Positions 14,539 through 33,085 of a DNA stretch of 64,000 nucleotides are shown in pieces (positions within the stretch are counted from its first letter, which is position 1; the number at the start of each line of letters is the position of its first letter). The DNA comes from Olsenella porci. Lineage in GTDB: Bacteria; Actinomycetota; Coriobacteriia; Coriobacteriales; Atopobiaceae. The notes under the pieces are model-generated. The model was not told the origin of the DNA and did no database searches. It saw only the letters and a program-made list of their open reading frames with translations. The stretch covers positions 1-64,000 of the forward strand of contig NZ_VUNC01000004.1 in assembly GCF_009695875.1 (NCBI RefSeq), read 5' to 3'. The position numbers were made by a program, and so were the translations under genes.

Positions 14539-14982
14539 CTACTCTTCTCTTCTATCTATATAGGGGCGGACAATCTGTCCGCGGCCGTGGCCAGGATGTC
14601 CGGAGCCGCGGACAATATGTCCGCCTCCCGCCTTGCCCGCGGACAATTTGTCCGTGGTCTCGCCGCCCTCCACGCGCGTTATCGCCGCGCTGACGGCCTC
14701 CCTGCGGAGGACGAAGGTTCTGCCCCTCGGGCACGTTTCGGCGTCGGCGGTCTCTGCTATGAGGTCCCTCGAGACGAGGTTTCCGAGGGACCTTCTGACC
14801 TGTCTCTCCGACATGTTCAGGAACGCGGCGCAGCTCTCGGCCGACTCGAAGTAGGTGCCGCTCTCCTCCTGGCAGAAGCTGAAGACCCTCGCGTAGACGA
14901 GGAGGTCGGATCCCCTGAGCCCCAGCCCCTCTGTCATGAAGCGGTACACCGTGGCGAACTCGCCGGCCGAGTGCCTTTGCAT
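14539..14982 (-). CDS. winged-helix replication initiator-like protein (RepA-type)
   Basis: 147 residues. Residues 8-105 look like the winged-helix initiator domain of ICE/plasmid proteins: FATVYRFMTEGLGLRGSDLLVYARVFSF, then FESAESCAAFLNMSERQVRRSLGNLVSRDLI. The last 40 residues are low-complexity and encoded by DNA carrying three GGACAAT-type palindromes. The ATG at 14982 overlaps the upstream HTH gene's TGA, so the two are coupled. With the DnaC-like gene it forms the element's replication module. Confidence 0.7.
   Translation of the reverse strand: MQRHSAGEFATVYRFMTEGLGLRGSDLLVYARVFSFCQEESGTYFESAESCAAFLNMSERQVRRSLGNLVSRDLIAETADAETCPRGRTFVLRREAVSAAITRVEGGETTDKLSAGKAGGGHIVRGSGHPGHGRGQIVRPYIDRREE
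14566..14655. repeat. three GGACAATNTGTCC palindromes at the 3' end of the initiator gene
   Basis: Palindromes at 14566-14582 (GCGGACAATCTGTCCGC), 14608-14624 (GCGGACAATATGTCCGC) and 14639-14655 (GCGGACAATTTGTCCGT), with a half-site ATGTCCGG at 14596. Start-to-start spacing is 42 and 31 bases. They resemble iterons or operator sites for a dimeric DNA-binding protein, perhaps the initiator itself. They lie inside coding sequence, encoding DKLSA, HIVRG and QIVRP. Confidence 0.7.
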
Positions 14983-19976: not shown

Positions 19977-21863
19977 CTACGCAAACTGGCTTTGGTACAG
20001 CTCCGCGTAGGCACCGCCTGCCGCCAGGAGCTGGGCGTGGCTTCCCTGCTCCACGATGGTGCCGTGGTCCATCACCAGGATGAGGTCGGCGTCCACGATG
20101 GTCGAGAGCCTGTGGGCGATGACAAAGCTGGTGCGGCCCTCCATCGCCGTCTCCATGGCGTGGACGATCGCCTGCTCCGTGCGGGTATCCACGCTCGAGG
20201 TCGCCTCGTCCAGGATGAGGATCGCCGGATCCACGAGCATGGCGCGCGCTATGGTGAGCAGTTGGCGCTGGCCCTGGCTTATCTCCTCCGCCTCGTTGGA
20301 GAGCATGGTCTGGTACCCCTTGGGCAGCGTGTGCACGAAGAAGTCCACGTGCGCCGCCTTTGCCGCCGCCACGACCTCGTCGTGCGTGGCACCGGGCCTG
20401 CCGTACGCGATGTTCTGTTCTATGGTCCCCTCGAACAGCCAGCTGTCCTGCAGGACCATGCCAAACTGGGCGCGCAGGTCGGAGCGGGCCATACGCCGGG
20501 TGTCCACGCCGTCGATGGTGATTCGGCCGCCATCCACCTCGTAGAATCGCATGAGCAGGTTGACGAGGGTGGTCTTGCCGGCGCCCGTGGCGCCCACAAT
20601 CGCGACCTTCTGCCCCGGCTCCGCCACAAACGAGACATCGCGCATGAGCGGGCGATCGGGCGAGTAGCCAAAGCGAACGTGCTCGAAGGCGACCCTGCCG
20701 CGGACGGGGCTCGCCGGGAGCTCGGGCTCCGCCGGGTCGGGCTCGACCTCGTCCTCGTCCAGCAGGGCAAACACGCGCTCAGCGGCTGCAAGCGCCCCCT
20801 GCAGCATGTTCACCGTGAGCGAGAGCTGCGTGAGCGGCTCGGTTGCCTGAGTCACGTACTGAAAGAAGGCCTGGAACACGCCGACCGAGAGCCTTCCGGC
20901 GATGAGCATGGACCCCGCCATCAGGCCCACGACCACCTGGCACAGCCGCGTGAGAAAGCGGATGGCGGGGCTGATGGCGTTGGTCACGAAGTCCGCCTGG
21001 GCGCTCGTACGTGCGAGGTCCTCCGAGCAGGCGCGGATGTCGTCCAGGCTGTCGCCCTCCCGGCCAAACGCCTTGATCACCGCACGGCCGCTGTACGCCT
21101 CCTCCACCTTGCCCGTAAGGGTCCCCAGCGCCTCCTGGCGCCGTGACGCGATGGAGAGCGTGCGCGCCGCGACGACCTTGGTGAGGAGGGCGGACGCCGC
21201 CGCAAAGCAGCAGAACACCAGGGTAAGCACCACGCTGTACCTGGCCATCATCACGACGGCGCCCACGAGCGTGACGGCCGAGATGATCAGCTGCATCACG
21301 CCGCGCTGCAGCACCTCGGACACCTTGTCCAGGTCGTTGGTGGCGCGGCTGATGGTGTCACCAGGTTGGTGGCGGTCGTAGTACGAGAGCGGCAGGCGTC
21401 CCAGCTTGGCCGAGATGAGCCCGCGAAGGCGGAGGTTGAGCCTCTCCGCAAAGCTCGACATCACGAAGGACTGCACGCTGTAGAAGGCCCACGACACGGT
21501 CCAGAGGGAGAAGAACGTCAGGATCTGCCTGCCGCCGTTCTCCATGGTCACCACGTAGTCCCTGCCCTGGGCAAAGGACTCCTGCACGTTCCTCCACACC
21601 AGGTCGACCACGTAGGCGCTGTAGGCGGGCGCAGCGAGGCTAAACGCAACGTACAGCACCGTCGCAATGGCGGACACCACGAGCCTCCAGCGGATGCCCC
21701 GGGCGCTCTCCCACAGGCGGCGCGCCGTCCCCATGGCGTCCGAGGGAACCTCGGAGTCGCCCTCCGCGCCCCCATCGGCGGGAGCGGCGCCGACCCGCTC
21801 GCCCTCGATGCCGTCGGGTGCCTTCCGCAGCGCGGCTGCCTTGTCCCTCTCGTCACTCGCCAT
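19977..21863 (-). CDS. heterodimeric ABC exporter subunit, canonical ATPase site
   Basis: 628 residues: acidic N-terminal extension (about 1-40), six-helix transmembrane domain (about 55-350), then an ATPase with Walker A VGATGAGKTTLVN near 424, signature ISQGQRQ near 529 and Walker B AILILDEATSSVD with the catalytic Glu. Overlaps the partner gene by 11 bases. Its partner has a degenerate Walker B, so the two should form an asymmetric type IV exporter of the BmrCD/LmrCD kind, probably for drugs or lipids. Substrate unknown. Confidence 0.9.
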   Translation of the reverse strand: MASDERDKAAALRKAPDGIEGERVGAAPADGGAEGDSEVPSDAMGTARRLWESARGIRWRLVVSAIATVLYVAFSLAAPAYSAYVVDLVWRNVQESFAQGRDYVVTMENGGRQILTFFSLWTVSWAFYSVQSFVMSSFAERLNLRLRGLISAKLGRLPLSYYDRHQPGDTISRATNDLDKVSEVLQRGVMQLIISAVTLVGAVVMMARYSVVLTLVFCCFAAASALLTKVVAARTLSIASRRQEALGTLTGKVEEAYSGRAVIKAFGREGDSLDDIRACSEDLARTSAQADFVTNAISPAIRFLTRLCQVVVGLMAGSMLIAGRLSVGVFQAFFQYVTQATEPLTQLSLTVNMLQGALAAAERVFALLDEDEVEPDPAEPELPASPVRGRVAFEHVRFGYSPDRPLMRDVSFVAEPGQKVAIVGATGAGKTTLVNLLMRFYEVDGGRITIDGVDTRRMARSDLRAQFGMVLQDSWLFEGTIEQNIAYGRPGATHDEVVAAAKAAHVDFFVHTLPKGYQTMLSNEAEEISQGQRQLLTIARAMLVDPAILILDEATSSVDTRTEQAIVHAMETAMEGRTSFVIAHRLSTIVDADLILVMDHGTIVEQGSHAQLLAAGGAYAELYQSQFA

Positions 21864-23673
21864 CTGCCTCGCCCCCCTCCATCTGCTGCGACTCCACGAT
21901 TGCCCGGTATGTCGGACATGTCCTTACCAGCTCGTCGTGCTTGCCCACGCCCGCCAGGCGGCCCTCGTCCAGAACAACGATCTGGTCGGCGCCGCGGATC
22001 GTACTCACCCGCTGGGCGATGAGCAGCGTCGCCGCCCCTTCCAGCTCGCCCGAGAGGGCGTGCCTCAGCGCCGCGTCCGTCTTGAAGTCGAGCGCCGAGA
22101 ACGAGTCGTCGAACACGTACAGGTCGGCCTTGCGCACCAGAGCGCGGGCGATCGCCAGGCGCTGCCGCTGGCCGCCCGAGAAGTTGGTGCCTCCCTGCGA
22201 CACGCGGGCGTCCAGCCCATCCGGGAGCTCGTGCACAAACGACGCCTGGGCCACGTCCAGGGCGTGCCACAGCCGCTCGTCCGTCGCCTTGGTGTCCCCG
22301 TCACGCAGGTTCTGGGCGATGGTGCCCGAGAACAGCCACGCTCGCTGCGGAACGTACGAGATGCGGTCCCTCAGCTCGTGCTGCGACACGTCTCGCACGT
22401 CCCTGCCCAGGAACAGCAGCCTGCCACCCGTGGCGTCGTGGAAGCGCAGGAGCATCTTGGCGATGGTCGACTTGCCGGAGCCGGTGTTGCCGATGACCGC
22501 GGTGACCTCGCCCCTCCGGAGCGCGAAGTCCAGATTGTGCAGGGTGTCCTCGTCCGCGTCGCCAAAGCGGAAGCTGACGTGGTCAAAGCGGGCGACCTCC
22601 GCCGGAACGTCATCACCAGACGGCAGCTCTGCCGGGACTTCCGGATCCAGGATCACGGGCGTTGCCGAGAGGACCTGGGCGGCACGGGACAGGCAGGCAA
22701 GGCCGCGTGGCATCTGCAGGATCGCGAACTGCGCCATCATCATGAAGAACATGATGAGCATGGCGTACTCGATGAGCGCCGAGATGGAGCCTATCTGCAT
22801 GGCGTGCGCCCCCACCCGGTCGGCGCCAACCCACAGGATGGTGGACTCGACCACGTTCATGAGGAAGAACGTGGCGCAGTCGCAGGTGGAGAAGACCAGA
22901 TTCACCCGGATGGCACGGTCCGCATACGACTCGAAGGTGGAGTCGAGCCGCTCGCGTTCGCGCGACTCCCTCCCAAAGGCACGGATGACGCGCACGCCCG
23001 TGATGTACTCTCGCAGGCGCACGTTCATGCGGTCGATGAACGACTGCAGCATCACGAAGATGGGGGCGGACCTCCACACCGCCAGCCCAAAGATCACCAG
23101 GATCACGAGGGTGACAGCCACCAGGAGACGGCCCATCACGGGGTCGACGCCAAAGGCGAGCAGGATCGCCACCACGCACGTGACGGGGACCGGCCCCATC
23201 ATGATGAACCCCATGAGCAGCATCTGCTGCACCACGTTGGCGTCCGAGAGCGTGCGCGTGATCATGGACCCCGTGCCAAACTGCTCGAAGTCCGAGTGTG
23301 CGAGCTCGAGCGACTTCTGGTACACCCTCACGCGCAGGTCCCTGCCCACGTTGGCGGCAAACTTGGATGCCAGGTAGTAGGAGGCAATGCAGCCGCCCGA
23401 CCCCACGACGGCGGCGACGAGCATGGAGACCCCATGCCCCGCCAGGGCGTCGGCGTCACGAGCCGCGATGGCGGTGTTCACGAGCGCCGCGAGCTCGGTG
23501 GGGATGTACAGCATGCCCACGATGTCGCAGAGCAGCGTGACCACCATGCCGGCGACGAGCCACTTGTACGGGGCAACCAGCTCGCGGAACAGCGCGAGTG
23601 CCGCCCTCCTGCCCTCGCGGCCGATGGAGGCGGTTGCGACCTCCGCCTCCACGTCCCTCTCCCCCGCGCTCAT
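21853..23673 (-). CDS. heterodimeric ABC exporter subunit, degenerate ATPase site
   Basis: 606 residues: six transmembrane helices (about 25-320) and an ATPase with Walker A IGNTGSGKSTIAK near 398 and signature FSGGQRQRLAIARAL near 499. Walker B is DLYVFDDSFSALD: the catalytic Glu is Asp, the hallmark of the non-catalytic half of heterodimeric exporters. Overlaps the MarR-family gene (23670-23673 as ATGA-type junction) and the second subunit, so all three are one coupled operon. Confidence 0.9.
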   Translation of the reverse strand: MSAGERDVEAEVATASIGREGRRAALALFRELVAPYKWLVAGMVVTLLCDIVGMLYIPTELAALVNTAIAARDADALAGHGVSMLVAAVVGSGGCIASYYLASKFAANVGRDLRVRVYQKSLELAHSDFEQFGTGSMITRTLSDANVVQQMLLMGFIMMGPVPVTCVVAILLAFGVDPVMGRLLVAVTLVILVIFGLAVWRSAPIFVMLQSFIDRMNVRLREYITGVRVIRAFGRESRERERLDSTFESYADRAIRVNLVFSTCDCATFFLMNVVESTILWVGADRVGAHAMQIGSISALIEYAMLIMFFMMMAQFAILQMPRGLACLSRAAQVLSATPVILDPEVPAELPSGDDVPAEVARFDHVSFRFGDADEDTLHNLDFALRRGEVTAVIGNTGSGKSTIAKMLLRFHDATGGRLLFLGRDVRDVSQHELRDRISYVPQRAWLFSGTIAQNLRDGDTKATDERLWHALDVAQASFVHELPDGLDARVSQGGTNFSGGQRQRLAIARALVRKADLYVFDDSFSALDFKTDAALRHALSGELEGAATLLIAQRVSTIRGADQIVVLDEGRLAGVGKHDELVRTCPTYRAIVESQQMEGGEADGE

Positions 23674-24146
23674 CGGGCATCGACCTCCCCTAGGGCGTCG
23701 AACTCGTCCGACACCGCCGCGGCGAACTCCCCCACCAGGCGGACGAGCTCCGAGCGGTCCCTCTCCGCGAGCCTCTCGAACGCACGCTGCTCCGCAGCAA
23801 GGGCGGGCTCAACGCGCTCTGCCGAGAAGGCTCGGCCGGCATCGGTGAGGAGGGCGACCTTGTTCTTCCTGCTTCCCGGCTCAAATTCCAGGCTCACGAG
23901 GCCTTTTGACTCAAGCGAGCGCAGAGCCGAGTTGGCTGTCTGGGGCCGGATCGACAGGTCCTCCACGAGGCTGCGAACCGAGGCGCTGCCCCCTCCCACA
24001 ACCACGCCGTACAGCACCCAGTACGCAGACTCCGAGAGCCCGCAGCTGCGCGCGAACCGATAGTAGAGCTTGTCCGTCTCCCTATAGATGCAGTCGAGGT
24101 CGCGCACGGTGCAGCCCGCGCGACCTCCATTGGCGCCCACGCCCAT
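23670..24146 (-). CDS. MarR-family transcriptional regulator of the ABC exporter
   Basis: 158 residues with a winged-helix core: LSESAYWVLYGVVVGGGSASVRSLVEDLSIRPQTANSALRSLESKGLVSLEFEPGSRKNKVALLTDAGRAF. MarR proteins bind their own operator and respond to ligands; this one heads the exporter operon, so it most likely represses it. ATG at 24146 has GGAG 8 bases upstream. A possible promoter (TTGCGA, 17 bases, TATCAA at 24186-24158) sits very close to the start codon and outer CTCCGT/ACGGAG arms may form an operator; both are weak calls. Confidence 0.85.
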   Translation of the reverse strand: MGVGANGGRAGCTVRDLDCIYRETDKLYYRFARSCGLSESAYWVLYGVVVGGGSASVRSLVEDLSIRPQTANSALRSLESKGLVSLEFEPGSRKNKVALLTDAGRAFSAERVEPALAAEQRAFERLAERDRSELVRLVGEFAAAVSDEFDALGEVDAR

Positions 24147-25186: not shown

Positions 25187-25318
25187 GAGTAAACGCCCAC
25201 TCTGTTGTCTCGCTTCCCCATGGCGCAGAAAGCCTCGCGTGAGCACCTTCCCCTGGGAGCAATGGTCGGGGCCTCTGCGTTTCCGCAGTTGGCAACATAT
25301 CAATCGCTGAACGTTATC

Positions 25319-25346
25319 AGCAGCAAACTCCCGAAGTGAGCACTTT
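25319..25346 (+). repeat. partial copy of the 47-bp repeat
   Basis: CAGCAAACTCCCGAAGTGAGCACT matches the first half of the 47-base repeat at 25433 and then diverges (TTCCCGC instead of CACATCG). Same orientation as the full copy. Confidence 0.6.
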
Positions 25347-25432
25347 CCCGCAGGGCAGCCCCCAGGAACCGGGACAGATTGACGCTTTCCCAGTTAAGAG
25401 GGGCCAGCGGAGATGCCATCCCCCCAATCCAT

Positions 25433-25479
25433 GGCAGCAAACTCCCGAAGTAAGCACTCACATCGGGCTTCCGTTGCCA
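25433..25479 (+). repeat. 47-bp repeat, left copy
   Basis: Runs from GGCAGCAAACTCCC to CGGGCTTCCGTTGCCA; 41 of 47 bases agree with the inverted copy at 32972-33018. The ends (GGCA/TGCC) are complementary. Non-coding; not an IS I recognise. Confidence 0.75.
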
Positions 25480-25834
25480 TGGTTCACGCCTTGGCACCAG
25501 ACCAAGACCATCCAGAAGAGCTCAGAGGAGGGCAGTGGTCACAATCCACTGGTCTCGGCTGCGGGAACATGTCCCTTTCCTCTCTTTGACCTCGGAGCCC
25601 TTCGCTCCGCGCCGAGGCTAGAGCCCAATGTTCTCTTTGGCGGGCGAACGTCTGCGAAAGGGCCCATTGAGGGGATGGAAGGGGGCAGGGCAGGATAACA
25701 CGCCCCTGCAATCCGCGGCAGGGATTCCGGTGCTCCGATGCGAGGGCAGGCCGCACGTGCTAGGACATCCAGGGCGTCTTCCGAATGGCGATTCCGAGCT
25801 GCTGCTGTCGGAGACCCGCAACGGTATGACCCCC

Positions 25835-26165
25835 TGTCGGAAACCGCATGCCGTGTGTACACGCGGGAGAGACTTTCTGACAGCGTCAGTATCCCCGACG
25901 TCTCACCAACAGGGACAACACAATGGAAGGAAGGACCTCCGTCAGAAACCTCGTGGTGTGTGTACACACGGGACGAACTTTCTGACATCAAGAGGGTCTG
26001 GAGGGATAATCCTGTCATCAATCCCGCAGAGCGTGTACACATGGGGTGCGCTTTTTGACAAGGACGCAGTCCAGATGCGACTCCATAAGGGGCAACGCGC
26101 CGCTGAAGAATATCCCATGTCAGAAATCACGTACCGCGTGTACACACGAGATGGACTTTCTGGCA
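25835..26165. repeat. array of four 48-bp palindromes (left locus)
   Basis: Copies at 25835-25882, 25940-25987, 26013-26060 and 26118-26165, each exactly 48 bases. All share the core GTGTACAC, usually extended to CGTGTGTACACACG, and outer arms close to TGTCAGAAA ... TTTCTGACA. Start-to-start distances are 105, 73 and 105 bases, i.e. 10, 7 and 10 turns at 10.5 bp per turn. The spacers (57, 25, 57 bases) do not resemble each other. The palindromes lie between the SRAP gene and the end of the cell-envelope operon. Confidence 0.9.
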
Positions 26166-26366
26166 TGAGGAGTCACCGATGCATGCGAGGTCTACCCGTC
26201 TCGTCGGGGACGCACCCTCCCCTTCTTTTACCTTGAAGACCCTCCGGCTGACGATTGGATACGAGCCCTCGCCTCGGTGGGTCGTCAGGGGGCATTGCCC
26301 GCACGGCTGGTCCGAGCCCACCAAGCTGGGGCCGACCGCGCTCATGAGGAGCGAGGGCCGAACCCG

Positions 26367-32586: not shown

Positions 32587-32811
32587 CGCCAGAAAGTGCA
32601 TCCCGTGTGTACACACGGGGCGTGACTGTAGGCAGGACCATCCCTCGCGGGTGGACGGATGCCAGAAAACCCATCCCGTGTGTACACACGGTACGTGGTT
32701 TCTGACAAAGGTCCGTCGTAGCACAGTGTTCCCCCAGTTGGTGGGGCATTCAGGCCTCAGTGCCGCCAGAAAGTGCGTCCCGCGTGTACACGTTGGACGT
32801 GCTCTCTGACA
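32587..32811. repeat. array of three 48-bp palindromes (right locus)
   Basis: Copies at 32587-32634, 32660-32707 and 32764-32811, each 48 bases, same core GTGTACAC and same outer arms (GCCAGAAA ... CTGACA) as the left locus. Start spacing is 73 and 104 bases. Read from the outside inward, the order of spacings (104, 73) mirrors the left locus (105, 73, 105). The inner palindrome of the first copy is perfect over 18 bases. The 32229-33085 interval otherwise has no gene. Confidence 0.9.
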
Positions 32812-32971: not shown

Positions 32972-33018
32972 TGGCAGGGGAAGCCCGATGTGAGTGCTCA
33001 TTTTGGGAGTTTGCAGCC
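32972..33018 (-). repeat. 47-bp repeat, right copy, inverted
   Basis: On the minus strand it reads GGCTGCAAACTCCC to CGGGCTTCCCCTGCCA, 41 of 47 identical to 25433-25479. Like the left copy it lies on the outer side of the palindrome array, completing the mirror arrangement. Confidence 0.75.
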
Positions 33019-33085
33019 AAGACCAGGCCCCCTGGGTGGCCAGGCGGACTCCGGCCACGGGCAACCTCGTCGTCGCCGCATCAAC

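Follow-up and report, generated by a model that had tools for sequence, protein, structure and literature searches.

Arrays of 48-bp palindromes, spaced by whole helical turns and carrying a second conserved box in their long spacers, were found in the genome of Olsenella porci (G000). There are about 40 arrays in this genome, built on two palindrome types; they are non-coding and lie mostly near gene ends. The DNA architecture of the arrays is established at the level of sequence. Our best reading is that they are dispersed DNA sites of a looping complex, similar to a repressosome or a BIME, with a structural role at the ends of transcription units. We lean modestly toward each array being the DNA template for a multi-subunit nucleoprotein complex with a chromosome-structural role, in which both the proteins and the function are putative.

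The window is the 64,000-nucleotide stretch that was analysed (NZ_VUNC01000004.1, positions 1 to 64,000). The initial annotation described four 48-bp elements in it, starting 105, 73 and 105 bases apart, and these were found at 25835-25882, 25940-25987, 26013-26060 and 26118-26165 (all type 1; no strand is assigned to any palindrome). They are indeed 48-bp palindromic elements, but single copies are imperfect, with 28-38 of the 48 positions symmetric. The spacers had been called unique, which does not hold since conserved motifs lie inside them. The first 105-bp interval contains the conserved box GTGTTGTCCCTGTTGGTG (25904-25921, minus strand), whose centre is 54 and 51 bp away from those of the palindromes on either side, and the second contains GCGTTGCCCCTTATGGAG (26081-26098, minus strand; 55 and 50 bp). 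Copy 3 starts 73 bp after copy 2, and the 25-bp spacer between them is boxless. A type-2 palindrome with the core GTAAGCACTCAC belongs to the same composite locus (25432-25479), and a degenerate half copy lies 114 bp upstream of it (25320-25344).

The four elements are part of a larger set, in which the type-2 copies and a second array in the window had been overlooked. This second array (32587-32811) has spacings of 73 and 104 bp between type-1 palindromes at 32587-32634, 32660-32707 and 32764-32811. Its box, GTGTTCCCCCAGTTGGTG, is on the plus strand at 32726-32743, at distances of 54 and 50 bp from the palindrome centres on either side, and a type-2 palindrome adjoins the array at 32972-33019. 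The motif GTGTACAC occurs 9 times in the window, compared to 0.33 expected, and 7 of the 9 are inside the two arrays; the other two (7192 and 61648) are without arms and were judged to be chance. Elsewhere in the window, three near-perfect GGACAAT.TGTCC inverted repeats (GCGGACAATCTGTCCGC, GCGGACAATATGTCCGC and GCGGACAATTTGTCCG) fall within 90 bp at 14565-14654, a cluster that looks like operators for one regulator.

Across the whole genome (2.36 Mb), the full type-1 motif, being palindromic, gave 39 matches per strand, and the reversed control gave 0. When the stretches around motif matches were scanned with position weight matrices, 55 copies of type 1 (core GTGTGTACACAC) and 76 copies of type 2 (consensus core GTGAGYRCTCAC) were found, a few copies scoring with both matrices. 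These matches scored 20-68, while shuffled sequence never scored above 6. A third type, with the core GTGCGTACGCAC, had 138 genome-wide element matches (control 0) in Olsenella sp. Marseille-P4559 (G094), which is treated here as a different genus of the same family. All three types share a length of 48 bp and the end pattern TGKCAGMAA...TTKCTGMCA, and the two halves of the consensus are TGKCAGMAA..GTGNGY and RCNCAC..TTKCTGMCA.

Among 121 genomes of the family, G000 included, only G000 and G094 matched the search pattern, which was type-1-like, so that arrays on other palindromes would escape it. A further Olsenella, G028, has a single array, at clpX. Since only 3 genomes had arrays when tested with motifs that match them, any role is lineage-specific. 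A wider survey of the class using the conserved arm ends gave no additional array family. Seven matches from that survey in G207 were rejected as array members since they belong to a separate, non-palindromic repeat. This unrelated dispersed repeat of another family of the order (loci L113-L117) is based on GTTACAGAAAATCGTACATAACCGTC and is unphased. Another separate dispersed repeat of about 80-90 bp has long terminal inverted repeats, AAAAGTGAACACGA...TCGTGTTCACTTTT, around an inner CTGGTACGTACCAG palindrome. It occurs at L130:3140-3229 (G028), G094:C1:1311477, G094:C1:934965, G090:C1:98439 and G064:C13:22219, and is also present in array-free Olsenella genomes.

The second box, GCGTTTnCCCAGTTGG (also given as GCGTTTNCCCAGTTGGGC), is common to all three palindrome types and both genera. 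It is asymmetric and sits midway between two palindromes in 60 of 75 long intervals and in 0 of 76 short ones, never appearing in the spacers of 72/73-bp intervals. In several type-1 arrays, the box has a weak or variant form. The four type-1 84-bp intervals (L023 5875, L024 6238 and 6395, L025 5719) have a different box, (G)TCTCCCGACGGTCGGAAG, also placed roughly midway. All 36 confident cases in G094 place the centre of the box 44 bp from that of the palindrome 5' of it and 40 bp (39 in two) from that of the palindrome 3' of it. The distances in G000 are 54 or 55 bp (21 of 23 cases) and, on the other side, 49-51 bp (22 of 23). Between the 84-bp and the 105-bp intervals, one turn is thus gained both 5' and 3' of the box (44+40 compared to 54/55+50), and one insertion or deletion by itself does not account for this. 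Two rarer intervals obey the same grammar (94 = 44+50 and 114 = 54+60), with weak box scores.

Spacings between neighbouring palindromes (90 pairs) cluster at 61, 71-73, 84/85, 94, 102-105, 114/115 and 124 bp, plus one at 81. Their phase coherence is R=0.90 (n=90 pairs) with a best period of 10.58 bp; after collapsing to seven spacing classes, p is about 7e-4. By regression, one turn corresponds to 10.47 bp. A larger set of G094 arrays together with the G028 array has 90 gaps, 49 at 72/73 and 36 at 84, and its best-fit period of 11.1 reflects the dominance of just these two classes. Interval lengths are mostly constant within 1 bp, and shifts are rare except by about one whole turn. By contrast, type-2 and type-1 arrays at shared loci lie 104 to 495 bp apart. 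The arrays of one genome are homologous to each other, with blocks of 65-84% identity over 200-700 bp, and descent therefore contributes to the regularity of the spacing. Spacer identity is 0.42-0.47 in 72/73-bp intervals and 0.42-0.43 in type-1 104/105-bp intervals, compared to about 0.31 when shuffled. At the level of sequence, the architecture has been held while the palindromes and spacers diverged.

These results strongly support the proposal in the initial annotation that selection acts on helical position, as for a multimeric DNA-bound complex: the whole-turn clusters extend over three palindrome types and two genera, and the second box lies at fixed offsets that differ by one turn per side between the genera. 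Randomly spaced, scattered copies and absence from all relatives had been named as findings that would speak against this proposal. The copies are not randomly spaced and the element does occur in relatives, and both outcomes favour it.

Every array examined is intergenic, with 0 overlap with called genes (rough gene calls). The gaps that hold arrays in the two genomes include 20 convergent and 2 divergent ones. Among unique G000 gaps, 15 are convergent and 2 divergent (p=3e-5 against the local background), and the larger Olsenella sample, including the G028 array, has 11 convergent, 17 tandem and 4 divergent gaps. Of the 35 intergenic gaps longer than 900 bp in the fetched sequence, which was selected to surround arrays, 31 bear one. 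The 30 flanking or near-flanking proteins checked, including SRAP, an acyltransferase, an ABC transporter, a histidine kinase, MurB, Ffh, RpoB and glutamine synthetase, showed no common function.

The arrays have no clear chromosomal-domain distribution. An ori/ter bias was considered and rejected: none of the listed G000 arrays is within C1:1-229 kb around parB at 157 kb, but G094 arrays occur within about 20 kb of G094 parB. An extra ParB/Noc paralogue was rejected as a candidate: G000 has one parB, like its relatives, and a weak second match is found only in G094. Conservation of array positions between the genera was likewise rejected, since two loci share an array-flanking orthologue (ffh and one more), which is about the rough chance expectation. 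The MarR-ABC-ABC genes at 19977-24146, near the window array, adjoin an array in G094 too (L143), but the other neighbour of that array is an orthologue of the gene beside a different G000 array (L021). The arrays may be rearrangement points.

The main rival to a looping complex is a mobile origin with retained geometry. The arrays would be a non-autonomous repeat, MITE-like or REPIN-like, that spread in bursts, with the phased palindromes and box as the assembly site of a transposase. The dispersal of about 40 arrays per genome, their sporadic occurrence across species and the divergence of their copies, with the block identities given above, agree with this. So does the clpX locus, where four Olsenella relatives have an empty site between clpX and GT8 (182-195 aligned bases compared to about 605). 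The G028 array there is probably recombination-borne, since G028 is 99% identical to G094 in the GT8 end and 88% in clpX. Two identical G094 arrays (C1:45177-45295 and C1:52326-52444), 7149 bp apart, suggest a recent duplication, which also suits mobility. However, the RAYT family (Y1_Tnp, PF01797) has 0 members in G000 and G094, the array-rich genomes, and 1-2 in each of the seven other Olsenella tested. No target-site duplication was seen at the clpX locus. An origin in phages or plasmids was rejected since no match was found, two viral-contig matches being treated as chance. The spacing also survives near-saturated divergence of the spacers, unlike in decaying MITEs. We consider a mobile repeat unlikely, though deserving of some weight.

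A terminator that works in both directions, or a transcription insulator, at gene ends would account for the bias of the arrays toward 3' ends and for the four terminator-like matches in 25187-26366, compared to 0.9 expected. Termination requires one hairpin and a U tract, however, and has no need of a box among four phased palindromes. The pairing of the arms is unconserved, and at clpX a separate GC-rich hairpin persists beside the array, making this explanation quite improbable. Operators of a transcription regulator that loops to control adjacent genes seem slightly more doubtful still. The palindromic sites with an apex site are arranged like the gal operators, but divergent gene pairs are avoided and convergent ones favoured, and the neighbours checked are unrelated housekeeping genes. 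Since the array at 25835-26165 lies between two gene 3' ends, there is no annotated promoter near it.

A structured non-coding RNA, which the initial annotation had allowed for and for which the palindromes could form hairpins, is barely credible, since no arm covariation was found within the three types (52, 58 and 22 copies) or between the arms of neighbouring palindromes, where direct-repeat similarity alone is slightly raised, complementarity equals that of shuffled columns both within and between palindromes, and no Rfam family matched. The two half-sites change independently of each other, a pattern that suits the sites of a dimeric protein better than a hairpin.

If the arrays are sites of a looping complex, a putative dimeric (or higher) protein would occupy each palindrome, and a putative second protein, perhaps a DNA bender, would occupy the box, at the apex of the loop. 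Proteins on the palindromes would touch each other along one helix face, and such contacts would close loops of 8 or 10 turns and stack units at intervals of 7 turns, in a manner resembling the closure of the gal loop by GalR and HU. The role at transcription-unit ends would be to mark or fold the chromosome structurally or to provide topological isolation, and not to regulate particular genes. More tentatively, and with the chances slightly against it, the arrays could represent an undescribed chromosome-organising system of the Atopobiaceae. At some 40 loci at gene ends, putative palindrome- and box-binding proteins would form multi-loop complexes that are helically locked, with palindrome specificity switched between genera and the box and geometry constant. 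If this is right, the geometry of a bacterial nucleoprotein complex is legible from DNA alone: between genera, distances change only by whole turns, symmetric about a fixed box, while binding-site sequences change. It would also point to putative architectural proteins among the Actinomycetota. Should the arrays have a mobile origin, they would still be a repeat family with a spatial grammar kept by selection.

No description of such a repeat architecture was found, and several known systems share some of its properties. In BIME-1 (RIP or RIB) of enterobacteria, extragenic palindromes flank a site for the architectural protein IHF and are dispersed at the 3' ends of transcription units, with several units per locus (PMC2817692). 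The arrays likewise have a palindrome, a conserved inter-palindrome site and a palindrome at gene ends; IHF binds the site in BIME-1, and a putative protein would bind the array box. Unlike BIME-1, whose REPs have a GTAG end, the arrays have symmetric sites of 48 bp, and they further differ by their whole-turn distances, unconserved arm pairing and lack of RAYT. More generally, the palindromes of REP and BIME elements measure about 20-40 nt and carry GTAG (or GTGG) at an end, which the array consensus does not have. The arrays do resemble REPs and REPINs with RAYT as high-copy, extragenic, 3'-end-biased palindromes, but differ by the lack of a hairpin constraint. An identity as REP/RAYT elements was rejected since the transposase is missing where arrays are abundant, and neither the consensus nor hairpin conservation agrees.

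The SlmA and MatP sites of E. coli are dispersed palindromes of the form GTG...CAC that are unconnected to gene regulation (PMC3116907). The type-2 consensus core contains the SlmA site GTGAGTACTCAC, which SlmA binds and from which Ter is free. SlmA and MatP sites are single sites of 12-13 bp with a macrodomain bias, whereas the arrays consist of phased 48-bp sites with no clear domain bias. In the GalR/HU repressosome of E. coli, two dimer sites are separated by about 11 turns, the apex of the loop holds an HU site, and repression works at 103, 113, 123 and 133 bp and fails at half-turn offsets (PMC4693257). The arrays share this layout of sites on one face with an apex site between them (44+40 and 54/55+50). 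In contrast to gal, which has one or few regulatory promoter loops, there are about 40 arrays at gene ends here, each with up to four or more palindromes.
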